Shown here piece after piece: positions 42,700 to 57,267 of a DNA stretch of 64,000 nt. The notes beneath the pieces were generated by a model. That model saw nothing but the letters and a program-made list of their open reading frames with translations, was not told where the DNA came from and made no database searches. The DNA comes from Achromobacter insuavis (GTDB lineage: Bacteria > Pseudomonadota > Gammaproteobacteria > Burkholderiales > Burkholderiaceae_B), in contig NZ_CADIJR010000022.1 of the NCBI RefSeq assembly GCF_902859645.1, positions 1 through 64,000 of the forward strand, written 5' to 3'. A program made the position numbers and the translations under genes. Every line of letters starts with the position of its first letter. Position 1 is the first letter of the stretch.

Positions 42700-42781
42700 C
42701 CTATTGCACCCTACTGCTCTCGGGGGTATTGTCCGTTCCTGCACTGCAACATTAGAACGCAGTCTTACTGCGGAGCGCGCC

Positions 42782-47521
<4,740 letters not shown>

Positions 47522-47529
47522 GGGATACC

Positions 47530-48996
47530 ATGGGAAAGATTACCGGCTTTATGGAATTTCAGCGTCTGCAGGAGGCCTCCGAGGCCCCGCAGAAGCGGCT
47601 GAAGAACTGGCGCGAATTCGTGCTGCACCTGACCGACGACCAGGCCAAGCAGCAGGCGGCGCGCTGCATGGACTGCGGCATCCCGTTCTGCAACAACGGC
47701 TGCCCGGTCAACAACATCATCCCCGACTGGAATGACCTGGTGTACAAGCAGGACTGGCGCCGTGCGCTGGACGTGCTGCACTCCACCAACAACTTCCCGG
47801 AATTCACCGGCCGCATCTGCCCGGCGCCGTGTGAAGCCGCCTGTACCTTGAACATCAACAGCGACGCCGTGGGCATCAAGTCCATCGAGCACGCCATCAT
47901 CGACAAGGGCTGGGCCGAAGGCTGGGTCGCGCCGCAACTGCCGGCGCGCAAGACCGGCAAGAAAGTCGCCGTGGTCGGCTCCGGCCCCGCCGGCATGGCC
48001 TGCGCGCAGCAGCTGGCGCGCGCCGGCCACTCGGTCACGCTGTTCGAGAAGAGCGACCGCATCGGCGGCCTGCTGCGCTACGGCATCCCCGACTTCAAGC
48101 TGGAAAAGCACCAGATCGACCGCCGCATCTCGCAGATGGAAGCCGAAGGCGTGGAATTCGCGCCCTCGACCTACGTCGGCAATCCGTCCGACCCGGTGGC
48201 CGACGGCCTGACCGTGCGCACCCCGGACTCGCTGCTGGCCGAGTTCGACGCCGTGGTGATGAGCGGCGGTTCGGAAACCCCGCGCGACCTGCCGGTGCCG
48301 GGCCGCGAGCTGTCGGGCGTGTACTTCGCCATGGACTTCCTGCGCCAGCAGAACAAGGCCGTGGCCGGCGACCGCCTCACCAACCAGACGCTGGCCAAGG
48401 GCAAGCACGTGGTGGTGATCGGCGGCGGCGACACCGGTTCCGACTGCGTTGGCACCAGCAACCGACACGGCGCGGCCTCGGTCACGCAGTTCGAGCTGAT
48501 GCCCCAGCCGCCCGAATCCGAGAACAAGACCATGACGTGGCCGTACTGGCCGCTGAAGATGCGCACTTCGTCCTCGCACGAGGAAGGCTGCGAACGCGAC
48601 TGGTCGGTGACCACCAAGCTGCTGCAGGGCAGCAACGGCAAGGTCGAGAAGCTGGTCGGCGCCCGCGTCGAGTGGTTCAAGGACGAAGCCACCGGGCAGA
48701 TGAAGATGCGCGAGGTCGAAGGCTCGGAATTCGAGATCAAGGCCGACCTGGTGCTGCTGGCCATGGGCTTCGTGTCGCCGGTGCAGACCGTGCTGGACGC
48801 CTTCGGCGTCGACCGCGATGCGCGCGGCAATGTGCGCGCCAACACCGACGACTACCGCACCAACGTGGAGAAGGTCTTCACCGCCGGCGACATGCGCCGC
48901 GGCCAGTCCCTGGTGGTCTGGGCCATCCGCGAAGGCCGCCAGTGCGCGCGCTCGGTGGATGCCTACCTGATGGGGTCGAGCGAACTGCCGCGCTGA
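47530..48996 (+). CDS. gltD: glutamate synthase (NADPH) small subunit
   Basis: 488 residues from ATG at 47530. N-terminal 4Fe-4S region with [18 protein letters not shown] and [16 protein letters not shown]-binding [17 protein letters not shown] near 150; NADPH-binding [20 protein letters not shown] near 300; the C-terminal [20 protein letters not shown] closes the FAD site. It feeds NADPH electrons to GltB. A hairpin and a terminator follow its stop. Confidence 0.98.
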
Positions 48997-49137: not shown

Positions 49138-49716
49138 ATGTCCGCCGCTGACCCCGCCGTTGCCGCACCGCCGACGCTGCCGCAGATTTTCCTGGCCTTC
49201 GCCAAGGTCGGCCTGACCAGCTTCGGCGGCGGGCTGAGCGGCTGGATGATGCGTGAATTCGTGCAGCAGCGGCGCTGGCTGTCCGAATCCGATTTCCTCA
49301 GCGGCCTGGCGCTGGCGCAGTCGTTCCCCGGCGTGAACGTGGTGAACCTGGCCATCTGGATCGGCTTTCGCCTGCGCGGCGGCCCCGGCGCGCTGCTGGG
49401 CGGCCTGGGCATCACCGTGCCGCCGATGCTGGTGGCGATCGCCGCCGCGGCGCTGTTCGCCCGTCTGGCCCAATCGCACGGCCTGCACGTGGCGATGGCG
49501 GGCGTGGCGGCGGCGGCGGTGGGCGTATCGCTGCAGACCGGCCTGCGCGCCGCCCGGCGCGCGCTGCAGGGCTGGGTGCCCGCCGCGGTCATGGGCGTGA
49601 CCTTTGCCGCCATCTTCCTGCTGCGCCTGCCGTTGTTGTGGGTGGTGGGCGTCATGGCGCCGCTGTCGATCGGCATCGCCTATTCGCGCCTGCGGCGCCG
49701 GGAGCGACAGCCATGA
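49138..49716 (+). CDS. short-chain chromate transporter, first subunit
   Basis: 192 residues, half of a full ChrA. The CHR domain is recognised by FAKVGLTSFGGGLSGWMMREF near residues 20-40 and the FPGVNVVNLAIWIG segment. Five to six membrane helices. Split CHR proteins work as a pair of opposite topology; the second gene overlaps this stop as ATGA. The family exports chromate by the sulfate-like route, but many short-chain pairs have no proven substrate. Confidence 0.88.
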   Translation: MSAADPAVAAPPTLPQIFLAFAKVGLTSFGGGLSGWMMREFVQQRRWLSESDFLSGLALAQSFPGVNVVNLAIWIGFRLRGGPGALLGGLGITVPPMLVAIAAAALFARLAQSHGLHVAMAGVAAAAVGVSLQTGLRAARRALQGWVPAAVMGVTFAAIFLLRLPLLWVVGVMAPLSIGIAYSRLRRRERQP

Positions 49717-50240
49717 ACCTGGCCACGCTGCACGACCTGTTCGCGGTCTTCACGCCGCAGTCGTTCCTGACGGTGGGCGGCGGCCAGAGCATCCTGCCCG
49801 AAATCCACCGCCAGGCCGTCGACAACTATGGCTGGATCACCGAAGCGCAGTTCCTGGACTACTTCGCCCTGTCGCGCATCACGCCGGGGCCGGCCTCGCT
49901 GCTGGTGACGCTGATCGGCTGGCAGGTGGGCGGCTGGGCCGGCGCCATCGCCGCCTCGATCGCGATCTTCCTGCCCTGTTCGCTGCTGATCTATGCGCTG
50001 GCGCGGGTCTGGGCGCGATATCGCCACGCCACCTGCGTGCGCGCCATCGAGGCCGGACTGGTGCCGGTCGCCGCCGGCATGATCCTGGCCTCGTCGTGCA
50101 CGCTGCTGCGCGCCGCCGAGGGCGGCGCGTGGGCCTGGGGCGTGGCCGCCGCCTCGACGCTGGCGCTGGTCTACACCCGCGTCAGCCCCTTCCTGATGCT
50201 GGCGCTGGGCGCGCTCGTGTTCCTGGCCGCGCTGGCCTGA
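49713..50240 (+). CDS. short-chain chromate transporter, second subunit
   Basis: 175 residues from ATG at 49713. CHR-domain signature FLTVGGGQSILPEIHRQAV near residue 18-36 and LSRITPGPASLLVTLIGW; five to six membrane helices. It is translationally coupled to the first subunit and should form a heterodimer with it. The stop is 65 bases from the convergent NCS1 permease. Confidence 0.88.
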   Translation: MNLATLHDLFAVFTPQSFLTVGGGQSILPEIHRQAVDNYGWITEAQFLDYFALSRITPGPASLLVTLIGWQVGGWAGAIAASIAIFLPCSLLIYALARVWARYRHATCVRAIEAGLVPVAAGMILASSCTLLRAAEGGAWAWGVAAASTLALVYTRVSPFLMLALGALVFLAALA

Positions 50241-50304: not shown

Positions 50305-51642
50305 CTAGGCGCCGCCGCCCTGCATGCGCTGGCCCGACACCGCGGCCTGCCCCAGCCAGTACACCACGCCCGCCACCACGAAGCTGGCCGGCGCCGCGAA
50401 CGTCGCGGCCAGGCCGCTCACGTGCATCAACGCCAGGCCGCTCGCGGCGCCCGCGAACCAGGCGCCCAGGCCACGGCGGTTGTAGGCGCTGCCGCCGCCC
50501 GGCGCCGGCGCGGACTCGCCCGCCGCCAGGATGTGCACCAGCGCCACCGCGACCCACGCCACCACGAAGATGCCCTGGTAGGCCAGCGCCTGCAGCAGAT
50601 AGGAGAACACGTCGAACAGCATCAAGGCGTACGACACCAGCCCCACCACCACCGCCCACGCCGCCTTGGGCCAGCGGCCCAGGCCGAAGCGCGCGAAGAA
50701 GGCCTGCATGTTGATGGTGGCCAGGTAATAGTTGGCGGTGTTGATGCGGGTCTGCGTCACCCAGACGAAGAACAGGCCGCCCAGTCCCATCAGCTTGAGC
50801 AGCGCCAGCACCACCGACACCTCGCTCAAGGCGCCATCGCCGGGAATGATGGCGACCAGGTAGATGCCGGCCACGCCGTTGAGCAGGAAGGTGACCAGGT
50901 AGAACGGCATGCCGAAGTTGTAGCGGCCGTGGTAGCGCGCATCCTCGCGGCGGCCGAAGCGCGCGTAATCGAAGGTGAACATCATCAGGATCCAGACGCC
51001 CATGTAATACACGTAGGCGTCCCACCAGCCGCCCGCCACCGGCCCGCCGGCCGGGCCGAACGCCAGCCAGGCGTCGCTGTAGCCGTACTCGCGCGTGGCC
51101 AGCGCCACCGCCAGCAGCAGGCCGCCCAGGTAGAACGGCAACAGCACGCCGTTGAACTTGTCGAGCCAGCGCTGCACGCTGCCGAAGATCAGCAGCACGC
51201 TGTAGATGACCACCAGCAGCGCGAAGGCCCAGTACGGCACGGCCGGGAACATGTGGTGCGCGGCCACCGCCATCACCGAACCCTCGAACACGGCGTAGTA
51301 GATGGCGGTGGCGAAGAAGATCAGGGTGGCCAGCGCCGCGCCCGAGGTGCCGAACACGCCGCGCGAGAACAGCGCCACCGACTGGCCGGTGCGGATGGCG
51401 TAACGCGAGATCACGGCGTTGATCAGGCCATAGGAAATCACCGACAGCACCATGCCGATGATGGCGTTGCGGGCGCCGTAGTTGAGCGCCAGCGTGGCGC
51501 CGACCACGATGTAGAAGATGGCGCTGCACACGGCCCACCAGGCCATGGTGAGCGGGAATCGGCCCATGCGGTCGGCATCGGCCACAGTGGCTAGGGAAGT
51601 GTCCCGGTCGGAGGACGAGGAGCTGGAAGCAAGGTTGGCCAT
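50305..51642 (-). CDS. NCS1-family permease (cytosine/allantoin/hydantoin type)
   Basis: 445 residues from ATG at 51642 with AGGAG upstream; the ORF extends further but lacks a start signal. Twelve membrane helices. The pattern FYIVVGATLALNYGARNAII and YDYARFGRRED-like segment (FTFDYARFGRREDARYHGRY) identify NCS1 nucleobase/hydantoin symporters. It is 154 bases downstream of pxpC on the same strand, with an 8-bp hairpin (51739-51758) between them. By context it imports the substrate of the carboxylase/lactamase genes; which compound is open. Confidence 0.85.
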   Translation of the reverse strand: MANLASSSSSSDRDTSLATVADADRMGRFPLTMAWWAVCSAIFYIVVGATLALNYGARNAIIGMVLSVISYGLINAVISRYAIRTGQSVALFSRGVFGTSGAALATLIFFATAIYYAVFEGSVMAVAAHHMFPAVPYWAFALLVVIYSVLLIFGSVQRWLDKFNGVLLPFYLGGLLLAVALATREYGYSDAWLAFGPAGGPVAGGWWDAYVYYMGVWILMMFTFDYARFGRREDARYHGRYNFGMPFYLVTFLLNGVAGIYLVAIIPGDGALSEVSVVLALLKLMGLGGLFFVWVTQTRINTANYYLATINMQAFFARFGLGRWPKAAWAVVVGLVSYALMLFDVFSYLLQALAYQGIFVVAWVAVALVHILAAGESAPAPGGGSAYNRRGLGAWFAGAASGLALMHVSGLAATFAAPASFVVAGVVYWLGQAAVSGQRMQGGGA

Positions 51643-51738
51643 GGAGGCTCTCCTGACGTGCTGAAGAACCGCGGAATGCGGACGAGTACGGCGTGCAGCG
51701 TGTGAAACTCGAAAAGCACAGGCGCAGGCGCGCCCGCC

Positions 51739-51758
51739 CGGCCTGTCGGAACAGGCCG
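51739..51758. terminator. hairpin between pxpC and the permease
   Basis: CGGCCTGT (51739-51746), loop CGGA, ACAGGCCG (51751-51758), perfect stem. No T-run on the minus strand, so it may attenuate rather than end the message, lowering permease expression relative to the enzymes. Confidence 0.35.
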
Positions 51759-51796
51759 GAAGGAAAGCAACGATCAACGGGGAAACGGGGCGGGGA

Positions 51797-52786
51797 TCAA
51801 CCCATGGCGGCACGCAGCCTGTCGAGGCGGGCGCGGTAGTCCTTGCGGGCCTGCAAGGCCGTTTCCAGCGTGACCCGTTCGAAGCGGGCCTGCTGGTTGG
51901 GCTGCATCTGGCCGACCTTGTCGAGATCGGCGCTGATCACGGTGCCGATCATGGCGTAGCCGCCGCCGGACACGGCATCACGATGCAGGATGATGGGTTC
52001 CACCCCCGCCGGCACCTGGATGGAACCGATGGGATAGCAGGCGTCGACGATGTTGGACGGATCGGCGCCCGCGCCGAACGGCTGCTCGCGCGGCTGGAAC
52101 TTCAGCGCGCGGCCCTTCTTGTAGCGGTAGCCGATGCGGTCGGCCTCCGAGGTCACGCTCCAGGCGTCCTCGTAGAACGAGGCGGCCGATTCCGGCATCA
52201 GGCGATGGTCGTACAGGCCCGGCACCACGCGCAGTACCTGCTCCTTCGGGCATTGGCTGGCGAGCTCCGGCGGCAGCGCGCGGCCGACCCGCGTCCCCGG
52301 GCGCGGCACGCCCACGCGCAAGCGGTCGCCGGCCTGCAGGCGGCGGCCGTCGAAGCCGCCAATGGCGCCCAGCGTGTAGGTCGAGCGGCTGCCCAGCACC
52401 TCGGGCACGTCGATGCCGCCGGCGATCGCCAGGCAGGCGCGCGCGCCGGCCTGCACGAAATCGAACGACAGCCGGGCGCCGGCCGGCACCGCCAGCGCGG
52501 TGTTGCAGGCCTGGGCCTGGCCATCGATCCTGGGCATCATGGTGGCGCCGGTGACGGCGATCACCGCGGCGCGCGTGAAGCGCAGCTCGGGGCCCATCAG
52601 CGTGCATTCCAGCACCGCCGCGTCCTCGGGATTGCCCACCAGCAGGTTGGCGGCGGCCAGCGCGTACTGGTCGAGCGCGCCCGAGGGCGGAATGCCCAGG
52701 TGGTAGTAGCCCTGGCGGCCACGATCCTGGACCGACGTCGCCAGCCCGGGCTTGATCACTTCGATGAGCGGTTCGTCATGCGGCAT
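51797..52786 (-). CDS. pxpC: biotin-dependent carboxyltransferase subunit, PxpC/KipA type
   Basis: 329 residues. It matches 5-oxoprolinase subunit C / allophanate hydrolase subunit 2: IEVIKPGLATSVQDRGRQGY at residues 8-27 and the C-terminal RDAVSGGGYAMIGTVISADL. The same fold forms half of the carboxyltransferase domain of urea carboxylase. The start overlaps the pxpB end by 11 bases. Together with the PxpB-like protein, biotin carboxylase and carrier protein, it should transfer a carboxyl group to an amide or lactam. 5-Oxoproline is the known substrate of PxpABC without biotin; here the substrate is open. Confidence 0.85.
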   Translation of the reverse strand: MPHDEPLIEVIKPGLATSVQDRGRQGYYHLGIPPSGALDQYALAAANLLVGNPEDAAVLECTLMGPELRFTRAAVIAVTGATMMPRIDGQAQACNTALAVPAGARLSFDFVQAGARACLAIAGGIDVPEVLGSRSTYTLGAIGGFDGRRLQAGDRLRVGVPRPGTRVGRALPPELASQCPKEQVLRVVPGLYDHRLMPESAASFYEDAWSVTSEADRIGYRYKKGRALKFQPREQPFGAGADPSNIVDACYPIGSIQVPAGVEPIILHRDAVSGGGYAMIGTVISADLDKVGQMQPNQQARFERVTLETALQARKDYRARLDRLRAAMG

Positions 52787-53651
52787 GGAGCGTCTCCAGA
52801 AGGCGGGCGTTGTACTGCTCGGGCGCCGCCATGAATTCGGACAGCGAGAACGACACGGGGCGGATGTCGAGCTGGAAGGTGCCGGCCTCGACCCGCGCCA
52901 CCGCCGCGTCGTACTCGGCGCGGCTGATCGGCTTGAACTTGACGATGTCGCCGGGGCGGAAGAACACCATGGAGTCGCGCAGGTGCGCCTGGCGCTGCGC
53001 GGGCTCGAAGATCGGCGCGGGCGTCACGCCGAACATCTGGTAGCCGCCGGCGCCGCGCACGGAATAGATGCAGGCGAAGCAGCCGCCATGTCCCACCGTG
53101 TGCTTGGGCGTGTCGGTGCGCGGCCGCAGGTACTTGGGCACTTCGAGCTGGCGCTCGCGCTCGACCATCTGGAACATGAACGGCAGGCCGGCCACGAAAC
53201 CAACCATCGACACGAACCAGGGCGCGCTGGAATGCGCCGCGATGAATGCATCGGTATCGGCAAAGCCATTGATGCGCGCGGCGTACTCCAGGTCGGTCGA
53301 GGCCGGGTCCTGGTGGCGCTCGCGAAAGCGCATCAGCGTCTCGTGGGTCCAGGGATCGTTGTAGAGCACCGGCACCTGGATCACGCGGGTGTCGAGCCGC
53401 AGGTTGTCCAGGTCGATGGTGGCCTCGATCTCGCGCAGGATGGCCAGCATGGCCTCGGGCGCGACCTGGTCGGGGTCGTAGCGGATCTGGTACGAGGCGT
53501 TGGCCGGGCAGATCTCGCTCACGCCGGGCACGGCGCGCTCGCGCAGCGCGCGCGTGATGGCCATGCCCTTGAAGAACGCGGCCAGCGACATCGATTCGCT
53601 GATCTCGGCGAAGATGAATTCATCGCCGCCATGGGTGTAGCGCACCGTCAT
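52776..53651 (-). CDS. pxpB: biotin-dependent carboxyltransferase subunit, PxpB/KipI type (long form)
   Basis: 291 residues, about 70 more than the E. coli PxpB. KipI-fold motifs include SSAPWFVSMVGFVAGLPFMF near 140 and HTVGHGGCFACIYSVRGAGG near 185, then GGYQMFGVTPAPIF. The C-terminal extension (RPVSFSLSEFMAAPEQYNAR) resembles the linker that precedes the carrier domain in urea carboxylase. The start overlaps the biotin carboxylase stop (ATGA). It pairs with the PxpC-like subunit to form the transferase site. The length and partners separate it from classic 5-oxoprolinase. Confidence 0.83.
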   Translation of the reverse strand: MTVRYTHGGDEFIFAEISESMSLAAFFKGMAITRALRERAVPGVSEICPANASYQIRYDPDQVAPEAMLAILREIEATIDLDNLRLDTRVIQVPVLYNDPWTHETLMRFRERHQDPASTDLEYAARINGFADTDAFIAAHSSAPWFVSMVGFVAGLPFMFQMVERERQLEVPKYLRPRTDTPKHTVGHGGCFACIYSVRGAGGYQMFGVTPAPIFEPAQRQAHLRDSMVFFRPGDIVKFKPISRAEYDAAVARVEAGTFQLDIRPVSFSLSEFMAAPEQYNARLLETLHAA

Positions 53652-55036
53652 TGGGTCCCCTCCCGCTGCTGCATCCAGCTTTCCAGGTAGTTGGTGTGAT
53701 AGTCGCCCGCCAGCACGCCCGGATCGGCCACCAGGGCGCGATGCAGGGCCAGCGTCGACGGCACGCCCTCGAATTCGGTTTCATCCAGCGCGCGCGCCAT
53801 CCTCGCCAGCGCGGCGTCGCGGTCTTCGTCCCACACGATCAGCTTGGCCAGCAGCGAATCGTAGTAGGGCGGCACCACGCTGCCGGCGTACACCATCGAG
53901 TCGATGCGCACGCCCGGCCCGGCCGGCCAGCGCACGTGCGACACGGTGCCGGGGCCCGGCGCGAAGTTGCGCGCCGGGTCTTCGGCGTTCAGGCGGCATT
54001 CGATGGCGGCGCCGCGCATGGCGATGTCCGCTTGCTTGAAACGCAGCGGCTCGCCGTCGGCGATGCGCAGCATCTCGCGCACCAGGTCGATGCCGGTGAT
54101 GGCTTCGGTGATCGGATGCTCGACCTGGATGCGCGTGTTCATTTCGATGAAGTAGAACTCGCCGCGGGTCTCGTCGTACAGGTATTCCAGCGTGCCCGCG
54201 CCGCGATAGCCCACCGACTCGGTCAGGCGCAGCGCCGATTCGCACAGCGCCTGGCGCAGCGCGGGGCTCAGCGCCGGCGACGGCGCTTCCTCGAACACCT
54301 TCTGGCGCCGGCGCTGCAGCGAGCATTCGCGCTCGAACAGGTGCACCGCGCGCTCGCCGTCGCCCAGCACCTGCACCTCGATGTGGCGGGCGCGCGGCAG
54401 GTAGCGCTCCAGGTAGACGCCGCCGTCGCCGAAGGCGGCGCGCGCCTCGGCCTGGGCCATGGGAATGGCTTCGCGCAGCTGCGCCTCGTCGGCCGCCACG
54501 CGGATGCCGCGGCCGCCGCCGCCGGCGGACGCCTTGATCATCAGCGGATAGCCGATCTGCGCCGCGTGGCTCAGGGCCTCGTCCAGCGAGCCCACCACGC
54601 CCTCGCTGCCCGGCACCGTGGGCACGCCCGCCGCCTTGGCGCAGGCGCGCGCGGCGGCCTTGTCGCCCATGCTGCGGATGGTGCTGGCGTCGGGGCCGAC
54701 GAACACCAGGCCGGCGTCGGTCACGGCCTGGGAGAAATCGGCGTTCTCGGCCAGGAAGCCGTAGCCCGGATGGATCGCGTCGGCGCCGCTCTCGCGCGCC
54801 GCGGCCAGCAGGGCCTCGGCATTCAGATAGCTGCGGGTGGCGTGGGCCGGCCCGATGTGGACGGCGGCGTCGGCCAGGCGCACCGCCAGTGCGTCGCGGT
54901 CGGCGTCGCTGTAGACCGCCACCGTGCGCATGCCCAGTTCGCGCGCGGCGCGGATCACGCGCAGCGCGATCTCGCCCCGGTTGGCGACCAGCAGGGTCTG
55001 GATGCAGCGCGGCCGGTAGAAGGAATGCACGCCCAT
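53648..55036 (-). CDS. biotin carboxylase (AccC-like)
   Basis: 462 residues from ATG at 55036. Biotin carboxylase N-domain TLLVANRGEIALRVIRAARE; ATP-grasp with KASAGGGGRGIR near 165; catalytic region FIEMNTRIQVEHPITEAITG near 295; C-domain follows. It carboxylates biotin on the carrier encoded just upstream, three bases away, and passes CO2 to the PxpBC-like transferase. It differs from housekeeping accC by this context; no accB-accC pair typical of acetyl-CoA carboxylase is here. Six genes from the LamB gene to the permease appear to be one leftward unit. Confidence 0.93.
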   Translation of the reverse strand: MGVHSFYRPRCIQTLLVANRGEIALRVIRAARELGMRTVAVYSDADRDALAVRLADAAVHIGPAHATRSYLNAEALLAAARESGADAIHPGYGFLAENADFSQAVTDAGLVFVGPDASTIRSMGDKAAARACAKAAGVPTVPGSEGVVGSLDEALSHAAQIGYPLMIKASAGGGGRGIRVAADEAQLREAIPMAQAEARAAFGDGGVYLERYLPRARHIEVQVLGDGERAVHLFERECSLQRRRQKVFEEAPSPALSPALRQALCESALRLTESVGYRGAGTLEYLYDETRGEFYFIEMNTRIQVEHPITEAITGIDLVREMLRIADGEPLRFKQADIAMRGAAIECRLNAEDPARNFAPGPGTVSHVRWPAGPGVRIDSMVYAGSVVPPYYDSLLAKLIVWDEDRDAALARMARALDETEFEGVPSTLALHRALVADPGVLAGDYHTNYLESWMQQREGTQ

Positions 55037-55039
55037 GCC

Positions 55040-55282
55040 TCAGCCCTCGATCCGCAGCAGGGCCTGGCCCGGTTCGACCGGATCGCCGTCGGCCACCAGG
55101 ATCTCGGCGACCACGCCGCCGATCTCGGCCTCGATCTGGTTGAACTGCTTCATCACCTCGACGATGCCGACCACGTCGCCGGGCTGGATGGTGGCGCCCA
55201 CCTCGACAAACGGCGCGGCGTCGGGACTGGGCCGGCGATAGAAGGTGCCGGGCAGGGGGCTCTGGATCTCTTGCTGCGACAT
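55040..55282 (-). CDS. biotin carboxyl carrier protein, free-standing
   Basis: 80 residues from ATG at 55282. The whole protein is a biotinyl domain: SPLPGTFYRRPSPDAAPFVE, then GDVVGIVEVMKQFNQIEAEI with the biotinylated Lys in EVMKQ (common form is EAMKM), and a C-terminal GQALLRIEG. It lacks the long N-terminal part of AccB. It is coupled with the biotin carboxylase gene and 39 bases downstream of the LamB gene. Confidence 0.92.
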   Translation of the reverse strand: MSQQEIQSPLPGTFYRRPSPDAAPFVEVGATIQPGDVVGIVEVMKQFNQIEAEIGGVVAEILVADGDPVEPGQALLRIEG

Positions 55283-55320
55283 GGGTTTTCTCCTTGGAAT
55301 GTGTGGGAATGATGGGCGGA

Positions 55321-56091
55321 TCAGGACAGCCGCGGCGGCGCGATGCGGATGCCGTGCGCCTCCAGGCGGGCGCGGGTGGCCTGCACCAGCGCCAGCGCGC
55401 CGGGCGTATCGCTGTGGATGCAGACGGAGTCGAAGCCGATCGGAATGTCGCGGCCGTCCACGGTGCGCACCTTGCCGTCGGTACACGCGCGCAGCACCTT
55501 GTCGGCCACCTGCTCCGGATCGAGCGCCTGGGTGTAGCGCGTGAAAACGATGGAGCCGCTGGCGTCGTAGTCACGGTCCGCGTAGAACTCGCGCACCACC
55601 GGCAGGCCCAGCTCGCGCGCCACCTTGCAGGTCAGCGAGTTCTCCATGCAATACAGCATCAGCGTGGGCTCCAGGTCGCGCAGCGTCTGCACCAGGCGGC
55701 GCGACAGGGTTTCGTCGCGCGCGGCGCGCATGTAGAGCGCGCCATGCGGCTTGACGTGCTGCAGCCGCAGGCCATAGAGGCGGGCGAATTCGCGCAGCGC
55801 GCCGACCTGGTAGACGATGTCGTTGACCAGGCCCTCGGCGTTCTCGTTCAGGTCGCGGCGGCCGAAGCCGACCAGGTCGCGAAAGCCGGGATGCGCGCCG
55901 ATGCCGATGCCATGCTCGCGCGCCATCACCACGGTGCGGTTCATGATGTTGGGATCGCCGGCATGAAAGCCGGTGGCGATGTTGGCCGAGCTGATCAGCG
56001 GCATGATGGCGTCGTCCACGTCATCGCCGATCTTCCAGGAACCAAAGCCCTCGCCCATGTCGGAGTTCAGGTCTATCGTCGCCTTGCTCAT
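55321..56091 (-). CDS. pxpA: LamB/YcsF family protein (5-oxoprolinase subunit A, PxpA)
   Basis: 256 residues from ATG at 56091 with AAGGAG ten bases upstream. The family start [20 protein letters not shown] is at 7-26; [10 protein letters not shown] and [19 protein letters not shown] carry the conserved metal or catalytic His/Asp; the C-terminus [14 protein letters not shown] is also typical. In PxpABC it hydrolyses activated 5-oxoproline to glutamate. As the first gene of the leftward unit it is divergent from the LysR regulator, across two palindromes. Confidence 0.9.
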
Positions 56092-56193
56092 GAAACAGGA
56101 TCTCCTTCTTCTTGCAGGCCGGCTGGCCGCGCAATGCCTGCACAGTAGCGAAGCGTCCGAGGGATAAAAAGTTCTTTTTTTGGATCAATCCTT

Positions 56194-56208
56194 ATCTGAA
56201 TTTCAGAT
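56194..56208. promoter_or_regulatory. LysR-type operator, ATCTGAA-T-TTCAGAT
   Basis: A perfect 7-1-7 palindrome with the T-N11-A pattern of LysR regulators, in the divergent region, 103 bases from the pxpA start and 142 from the LysR start. It is the best candidate for the primary binding site of the adjacent regulator. Confidence 0.6.
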
Positions 56209-56258
56209 GCCCCACGTTACGCACCAAATCGGAGCGATCGATAAATTCCTATGAAATT

Positions 56259-56274
56259 TCAGGGATTTCCCTGA
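56259..56274. promoter_or_regulatory. second palindrome in the pxpA-lysR divergent region
   Basis: TCAGGGA-TT-TCCCTGA, a perfect 7-2-7 palindrome, 65 bases from the first one and 76 from the LysR start. Its left side (GAAATTTCAG at 56253-56262) resembles the first site. It could be the activation or autoregulation site. Confidence 0.45.
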
Positions 56275-56349
56275 GATTTGCCGCACCCCGATGGCGCGGA
56301 TAAACAGATATTCTGGTGGCTACCTATCTATTAATCAGATATTGCCGCC

Positions 56350-57267
56350 ATGTCGCTTACCCTCCGGCAGCTCAAATATTTCGTCGCGGCCGCCGAACTC
56401 GGACAGATCTCCCAAGCGGCGATCCAGCTGGCGATCTCGCAATCCGCCGTCACCACGGCCATCCGCGAACTGGAAGAGATCGTGGGCTCGCCGCTGTTCC
56501 AGCGCAGCGCCAGCGGCGTGGCGCTGACCGAGACCGGACGCGGCTTTCTCAACCACGCCTACAACATCCTGTCCTCGGTCGACGAGGCGCTGCGCATGCC
56601 CAGCGCCGATGCGCGCGAAAGCGGACGCCTGCTGCTGGCGGCGTCCTACACCGTGATCGGCTACTTCCTGCCGTATCACCTGCAGCGCCTGTCGCAGCTC
56701 TATCCCAACCTGGACATCCAGCTGCACGAGCTCAACCGCAACGCCATCGAGGAAGGCCTGATCGCGCACCGCTACGACATGGCGGTGCTGCTGACCTCGA
56801 ACGTGGTGAATCCGGAATTGGCGGTCGAGCACTTCTTCGGCTCGCCGCGGCGGCTGTGGGTGCCGGCGCGCCATGCGCTGCTGGCGCGCGACACCGTCAC
56901 GCTGGAAGACGTGGCGCACGAACCGTTCATCATGCTCACGGTCGACGAGGCCGCGCACACCGCGCTGCGCTACTGGAGCGAGACGCCGTTCCGCCCCGAC
57001 GTGCGCCTGCGCACCTCGTCGGTGGAAGCGGTGCGCAGCATGGTGGCCAACGGCGGCGGCGTGGCGGTGCTGTCGGACATGGTCTATCGGCCGTGGTCGC
57101 TGGAGGGCCGCCGCATCGAGACCATCCAGTTGAAGGATCCGATCCCGCCAATGAACGTGGGGCTGGCGTGGCGCAAGGGCGCGGACATCACCGGCCCGAT
57201 GCGCGCGGTGCGCGACTATTTCCGCCACGCCTATGCCGTGCCGCGCGGCACCGACAATTTGCGTTGA
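56350..57267 (+). CDS. LysR-family regulator of the carboxylase island
   Basis: 305 residues. The N-terminal helix-turn-helix LRQLKYFVAAAELGQISQAA and SQSAVTTAIRELEEIVGSPL at residues 5-50; a type 2 periplasmic-binding-fold effector domain follows (SYTVIGYFLPYHLQRLSQLY). Divergent from pxpA across 258 bases with two palindromes. Its ligand should be the substrate of the permease and enzymes, or a product; unknown. Confidence 0.9.
   Translation: MSLTLRQLKYFVAAAELGQISQAAIQLAISQSAVTTAIRELEEIVGSPLFQRSASGVALTETGRGFLNHAYNILSSVDEALRMPSADARESGRLLLAASYTVIGYFLPYHLQRLSQLYPNLDIQLHELNRNAIEEGLIAHRYDMAVLLTSNVVNPELAVEHFFGSPRRLWVPARHALLARDTVTLEDVAHEPFIMLTVDEAAHTALRYWSETPFRPDVRLRTSSVEAVRSMVANGGGVAVLSDMVYRPWSLEGRRIETIQLKDPIPPMNVGLAWRKGADITGPMRAVRDYFRHAYAVPRGTDNLR

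Follow-up and report, generated by a model that had tools for sequence, protein, structure and literature searches.

The DNA analysed here, a window of 64,000 nucleotides from Achromobacter insuavis (contig NZ_CADIJR010000022.1), carries at positions 50305-57267 an operon whose gene order is LysR <> LamB/PxpA - biotin carrier - biotin carboxylase (BC) - KipI - KipA - NCS1-like permease (Table 1). All seven genes were confirmed in their places. The enzyme genes and the permease lie on the minus strand, with the LysR gene divergent and facing away. The five core genes overlap or are spaced by 3-38 nt. Between KipA and the permease a gap of 154 nt is left if the latter starts at ATG 51642, and an alternative GTG open reading frame (ORF, to 51813) overlaps KipA. 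All parts listed in an earlier note on this DNA (free BC, 80-residue carrier, KipI, KipA, LamB, divergent LysR, tight coupling) were present according to profile scores and spacing.

Table 1. Features of the operon, with positions in the 64,000-nt window.
Feature	Position	Strand	Basis
LysR-type regulator	56350..57267	+	HTH_1 and LysR_substrate domains
Palindrome ATCTGAAATTCAGAT with core TCTGN5CAGA, putative LysR operator	56194..56208	none	Recurring core in LysR-LamB gaps
LamB/PxpA-type hydrolase, predicted ring-opening subunit	55321..56091	-	PF03746 (LamB_YcsF) 306 bits; nearest PDB 1v6t
Free biotin carboxyl carrier (80 residues) with EVMK biotin-lysine site	55040..55282	-	NF005457 131 bits, cut-off 87
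Free biotin carboxylase (BC)	53648..55036	-	NF009471/PRK12833 828 bits, cut-off 686
KipI-type carboxyltransferase subunit (CT_C_D), catalytic-type K173	52776..53651	-	PF02682 133 bits; alignment to KlUA Lys1605
KipA-type carboxyltransferase subunit (CT_A_B), Q257 at substrate-selecting position	51797..52786	-	PF02626 305 bits; alignment to KlUA 1330
NCS1-like permease, predicted importer	50305..51642 (ATG start; GTG ORF to 51813)	-	Family members match PF02133; Foldseek CodB, Mhp1

BC, carrier, KipI and KipA matched the urea carboxylase model TIGR02712 as separate ORFs (556, 247, 119 and 30 bits, respectively, against a cut-off of 1303.85), and the single fused chain of that enzyme was not encountered at the operon. 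The domains of the two transferase halves were CT_A_B and CT_C_D, not those of acyl-CoA-type carboxyltransferases, and models of PxpB and PxpC remained below their cut-offs (74 versus 145.55 and 217.6 versus 500 bits). Chains V and W of PDB entry 9yx5 are named 'allophanate hydrolase subunits' 1 and 2.

Active-site residues were compared among 92 operon loci, 91 fetched from public genomes plus the window. KipI K173 aligned with Lys1605 of the Kluyveromyces lactis urea carboxylase (KlUA), described as the most likely essential general base of the carboxyltransferase (PMC5770610). Lysine was found there in all 92 loci, that is 71/71 outside a group devoid of BC (L095 included) and 21/21 within it, as well as in 19/19 urea/guanidine carboxylase loci; PxpB of the same genome and kinase A inhibitor 2zp2 displayed Arg. 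KipA Q257 aligned with KlUA position 1330, reported to tell guanidine carboxylase (Asp) from urea carboxylase (PMC11410670), the latter displaying Asn (PMC12186494). Gln occupied it in 90 of the 92 loci, every readable one (69/71, with two gaps, and 21/21 without BC), and likewise in the genome's own PxpC and in YbgK (5dud), while the urea/guanidine carboxylase loci displayed Asn (18/19) or Asp (1/19). Since K173 is as in urea carboxylase, where PxpB has Arg, and Q257 as in PxpC, where urea carboxylase has Asn, the active site appears from these alignments to be a hybrid, with a carboxylase-type catalytic residue and a lactam-type substrate residue.

The EVMK biotin site was intact in all 69 operon carriers read and the ATP motif GGGG[RK]G[IM] was kept in all 70 operon BCs. 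The families whose cut-offs were passed, NF009471 (BC) and NF005457 (carrier), are both named acetyl-CoA carboxylase in NCBIfam; both proteins shared only ~50-56 % identity with AccC/AccB-like pairs encoded in the genomes that were searched. LamB passed NF003814 (306 versus 226 bits) but not the more restricted equivalog models of PxpA (NF003812, NF003813, NF003815), for which it stayed below cut-off. A loop within residues 166-196 was two residues shorter in operon LamB than in the PxpA paralog of the same genome (91/91 LamB rows aligned). Two LamB types, ~43 % and >55 % identical to that of the window, shared this shorter loop; the former accompanied the same transferase genes in L040, L043, L081, L089, L091, L093, L095, L122 and L154.

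The genome harbored three CT_C_D genes: the operon KipI, one within a 1259-residue open frame of urea-carboxylase type (Asn at 1330), and one for a 252-residue protein of PxpB type. The last shares contig C36 with a second LamB/PxpA gene ~1.1 kb apart, and a PxpC-like match was found in the same locus. Beside the fused urea carboxylase and the distinct PxpA/PxpB locus of this genome, the operon thus constitutes a third system, and urea and 5-oxoproline are probably served by dedicated enzymes of their own.

Relatives of KipI occurred in at least 591 stretches of public genomes, the best 80 of which were examined. Close KipI proteins (67-100 %) were present in 12 of 61 genomes from the organism itself, its genus and its order, 11 of the 12 being in the genus, which supplied 37 of the 61. 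In total 111 distinct loci were considered, including the 92 main loci, five further plasmid loci and 15 from an evenly drawn sample (L139 is the same record as L119). The order LysR<>LamB-BCCP-BC-KipI-KipA (BCCP, the biotin carrier) was the rule in the 92 main loci. There were departures: 21 loci lacked BCCP and BC (20 labelled Pseudomonas, one Pantoea), L095 displayed a carrier without BC, LysR was elsewhere or missing in a few, L107 had the permease inserted between LamB and carrier, and some loci were cut by contig ends. The core order was also seen in annotated plasmid loci and spread across beta-, alpha- and some gammaproteobacteria. Its recurrence, with few departures, in BC-bearing and plasmid loci rules out a chance assembly.

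In the evenly drawn sample, 16 of 398 genomes of the phylum carried a KipI ortholog (E 1e-80), and BC stood beside it in 14 of these: in 13 on direct scoring, limited to the four top BC candidates of each genome, and in L148, where a contig end truncates it. The two genomes without BC were of Pseudomonas type: G617 is the L119 record, and the match coordinates of G512 equal those of G215 from a separate Pseudomonas draw. One genome (G524) displayed a BC of 60 % identity without a KipI ortholog at the threshold. A haloarchaeal plasmid of Natronorubrum (L154) carried KipI-KipA-BCCP, and PxpA and BC lay nearby in rearranged order, at 43-53 % identity. Viral contigs were also searched and yielded nothing. 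In the phylogeny against urea carboxylase and PxpBC that the earlier note had called for, rooted with a single PxpBC pair and covering 90 operon loci besides five fused carboxylases, KipI+KipA of the operon fell into a single clade, separate from the fused enzymes. The system is real and widespread, its gene content is not universal, and it is mis-named, its genes bearing the misleading database names acetyl-CoA carboxylase, allophanate hydrolase and 5-oxoprolinase.

Pseudomonas was the main exception in gene content. A KipI ortholog (E 1e-80) was found in 63 of 199 genomes drawn and an operon-type BC (E 1e-165, eight best candidates scored per genome) in 21, all within the 63. With all candidates scored, no BC above 55 % identity was detected in 16 genomes lacking it, the AccC-like gene reaching 53-55 %; the closest carrier there was an AccB-like protein adjoining the AccC-like gene (52-56 %). 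The 21 Pseudomonas-type loci (L099-L104, L106, L108-L116, L118-L121, L123) retained LysR, LamB, KipI and KipA, exactly the carrier and BC genes being gone, and nested with three BC-bearing loci (L098, L117, L124; node support 0.918). Four pairs of BC-less loci displayed dN/dS values of 0.03-0.15 in LamB, KipI and KipA, indicating purifying selection; the proteins are maintained, and their active-site residues are kept. Four KipI columns (46, 47, 49, 238) and none of KipA separated BC-less from BC-bearing loci at 90 %. An origin of the BC-less spacer as a remnant of the 3' end of BC was considered and rejected, since the same spacer occurs in BC-bearing L117. In L095 (proteobacterial metagenome-assembled genome, 9618-10870) the carrier was kept and no BC was found between carrier and KipI or elsewhere in the 16 kb covered, possibly through an assembly fault.

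Either these loci are served in trans by housekeeping AccB/AccC or their enzymes can do without biotin, and the retention of K173 favours the former. A supply of carboxybiotin to the remaining KipI, KipA and LamB by the acetyl-CoA carboxylase of the housekeeping set (AccB/AccC) is a possible if rather doubtful explanation. One carboxybiotin pool would then feed both fatty-acid synthesis and breakdown of N-heterocycles, and L095 would be an intermediate.

The permease of the window matched no Pfam, NCBIfam or PDB entry by direct sequence search, and its profile gave two chance-level PDB matches only (E 1.4 and 1.9). Of the 19 members of its alignment, 14 matched PF02133 at E values up to 10, the lowest being 5.8e-7; the window protein did not match. 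An AlphaFold model (pLDDT 74, pTM 0.77) found CodB (E 5e-9) and Mhp1 (E 1.4e-7) as best PDB matches with Foldseek. A non-NCS1 identity was rejected after these results; the NCS1 assignment of the earlier note is backed by relatives and by the predicted structure, and not by any direct match of the protein itself. Such a permease was present in 37 of the 92 loci, and a TorT-like binding protein with ABC genes in 18-21. In L036 (10929-14570) and many similar loci, a TorT-family binding protein and ribose-type ABC genes stood in place of the permease, and the annotation of the binding protein as belonging to a trimethylamine N-oxide reductase system looks misleading there. LysR orthologs (52-99 % identity) occupied the same divergent place in most of the 92 loci. 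The core TCTGN5CAGA recurred in 31 of the 83 gaps between LysR and LamB, many of them from related loci, versus 0.2 expected from mononucleotide shuffles, making the palindrome ATCTGAAATTCAGAT a candidate LysR operator.

Genes for a gamma-aminobutyrate (GABA) transaminase were found near the operon in 11 of the 111 loci. Nine belonged to the main set (L036, L067, L071, L075, L087, L095, L097, L105, L107; all matching TIGR00700, E up to 1e-100) and two to the five further plasmid loci, namely Agrobacterium T29, with KipA - transaminase - succinate-semialdehyde dehydrogenase (SSADH) on one strand, and Aestuarium. About 0.4 would be expected from the density in ten genomes (13 per ~66.7 Mb), the loci not being independent. 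SSADH accompanied the transaminase in seven of the 11 (L036, L067, L075, L105, L107, L155, L156), passed the TIGR01780 cut-off in L105 and L107, and in Hydromonas (L107) flanked the operon together with the transaminase. In three of five genomes (G668, G670, G672) the gene near the operon was the only one above the TIGR00700 cut-off, two such genes being present in G669 and G671. The GABA genes adopted at least five arrangements. Putative SSADH genes in three loci devoid of BC were discounted as signs of GABA metabolism: the L104 gene encodes a betaine-aldehyde dehydrogenase (889 bits against a cut-off of 593), and those of L106 and L116 matched no SSADH model at E 1e-200.

Genes of biotin synthesis were encountered as well: bioF, bioD and bioB adjoined the operon in Burkholderia L050 and bioB in Acidiphilium. 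A bioB-like cluster was seen in 13 of the 92 loci, the family being tested in L050 only and annotated in L037. In the window itself, genes resembling by eye the large and small subunits of glutamate synthase lie close to the operon at 42704-48996. Beyond the permease, on the opposite strand, are two ORFs (49138-50240) that likewise resemble by eye a chromate transporter split into a pair.

Taken with established biotin-enzyme chemistry, the parts, residues and neighbours suggest that the operon probably encodes a split biotin-dependent lactamase, which would N-carboxylate a cyclic amide before LamB opens the ring. The permease, or the TorT-like ABC importer of other loci, would bring a small lactam into the cell. 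BC would carboxylate the carrier-bound biotin with ATP and bicarbonate, and KipI/KipA would move the carboxyl group from carboxybiotin to the lactam nitrogen, with K173 in the role of base and the amide being recognised by Q257. The lactam carbonyl should become more electrophilic once the nitrogen is carboxylated, so that LamB could hydrolyse it to an N-carboxy amino acid, which would lose CO2. The net conversion would be lactam + ATP + H2O -> amino acid, with bicarbonate recycled. The general logic resembles guanidine to carboxyguanidine and urea to allophanate, as described in PMC11410670. Carboxyl transfer to a cyclic amide followed by LamB opening, as the earlier note had proposed, fits the residues of the active site, the biotin motifs and the genes nearby; as to chemistry, reaction order, N-carboxylation, substrate, import and LysR control are all inferred from observed parts, gene order, conservation, residues and neighbours. 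The substrate list, left open there, can be narrowed towards omega-lactams yielding GABA. 2-Pyrrolidinone, giving GABA, is tentatively put forward as the likeliest substrate, with 2-piperidone, giving 5-aminovalerate, as the second most likely.

Several observations weigh against this interpretation. No GABA transaminase was seen beside the operon of the window, and none of the 15 evenly drawn loci had an ortholog (two 30 % matches only; L153 displayed one 50 % SSADH match). Loci with the transaminase were partly related, three being from Variovorax. The residue roles were transferred from urea carboxylase by sequence alignment alone, and for the fungal protein P38095, presumably the LamA to which the operon is compared below, the source gives accession and class only. 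Finally, 42 of the 63 KipI-bearing Pseudomonas genomes showed no operon BC; conservation of BC and carrier with the PxpABC-like genes, on which the earlier note had made its proposal depend, fails in this one lineage.

Among the alternatives, an enzyme of the same class acting on another cyclic amide (hydantoin, dihydropyrimidine, allantoin-like or another N-heterocyclic lactam) survives best, and is unlikely rather than implausible. The permease model most resembles CodB, for cytosine, and Mhp1, for hydantoin, a relative is annotated allantoin permease, hydantoinase/oxoprolinase (HyuA/HyuB-type) pairs lie near five of the 111 loci (L043, L091, L141, L152, L157), and a xanthine-dehydrogenase-type molybdenum enzyme lies downstream of the operon in Diaphorobacter. 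GABA genes were, however, commoner and variously arranged, and the hydantoinase pairs could serve the same or a different lactam. An enzyme resembling PxpABC, in which KipI/KipA would activate the lactam directly with ATP and BC and carrier would be accessory, is improbable. It would account for the Pseudomonas lineages retaining LamB, KipI and KipA under purifying selection, and PxpBC is assumed to phosphorylate 5-oxoproline; yet the BC-less loci keep Lys where PxpB has Arg, the PxpB and PxpC models stayed below their cut-offs, and BC and carrier motifs are intact wherever the genes are present. 5-Oxoprolinase as main role was rejected on those model scores and on the separate PxpA/PxpB locus. 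A split urea or guanidine carboxylase has the same domains and matches TIGR02712 with all four proteins, but was rejected as highly improbable: position 1330 is Gln, neither Asn nor Asp, the fused enzyme with Asn already exists in this genome, the partner is LamB, and no allophanate hydrolase beyond KipI/KipA so named was annotated in 15 plasmid loci, whose gene tables are incomplete. A plain acyl-CoA carboxylase, suggested by the NCBIfam names and given in the earlier note as a refutation, can be dismissed, as the CT_A_B/CT_C_D transferase is of the wrong type for it and BC and carrier are just ~50-56 % identical to AccC/AccB-like pairs.

Should the biotin-dependent lactamase be confirmed, the activation of amides by biotin enzymes ahead of hydrolysis would extend past urea and guanidine, and bacteria would possess a way into 2-pyrrolidinone, a lactam used in industry, that recycles bicarbonate. 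The Pseudomonas losses would offer a natural experiment on whether transferases of this kind require their own carboxylase.

No biotin-dependent lactamase from these genes, nor biochemistry on the gene set, was found in titles and abstract starts of the open-licence papers searched, some searches being swamped by unrelated words. Urea/guanidine carboxylases (TIGR02712) share homologous BC, carrier and transferase halves and the K1605-type lysine with the operon, but are one fused chain with N or D instead of Q at 1330, and their partner is an amidase or deiminase instead of LamB. PxpABC 5-oxoprolinase shares the LamB/PxpA, KipI/PxpB and KipA/PxpC homologs and Q at 1330, but is devoid of BC and carrier, displays Arg for the catalytic-type Lys and differs in the PxpA loop. 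CapAB caprolactamase and OplBA also open lactams with ATP, with bicarbonate dependence reported for CapAB, but are unrelated proteins of the hydantoinase/oxoprolinase family without biotin.

The nearest precedent would be the fungal LamA/LamB pair, LamA being a urea-carboxylase-like biotin protein. P38095 is presumably the LamA of Aspergillus nidulans, no confirming paper having been found. If so, LamA is one protein of 1,241 residues, in contrast to the five free enzyme genes, permease and LysR of the operon. Should the fungal pair work alike, the 'distinct chemistry' of the earlier note was probably overstated. P38095 is listed as A. nidulans urea carboxylase in PMC3073912. The proposed likeness lies in the LamB homolog, in lactam and GABA genes under one regulator, AmdR being described as regulating the omega-amino-acid genes gatA/gabA together with lamA/lamB in fungi (PMC8016842), and in 2-pyrrolidinone being named for lamB, to both of which ycsF was linked early (PMC3412718).

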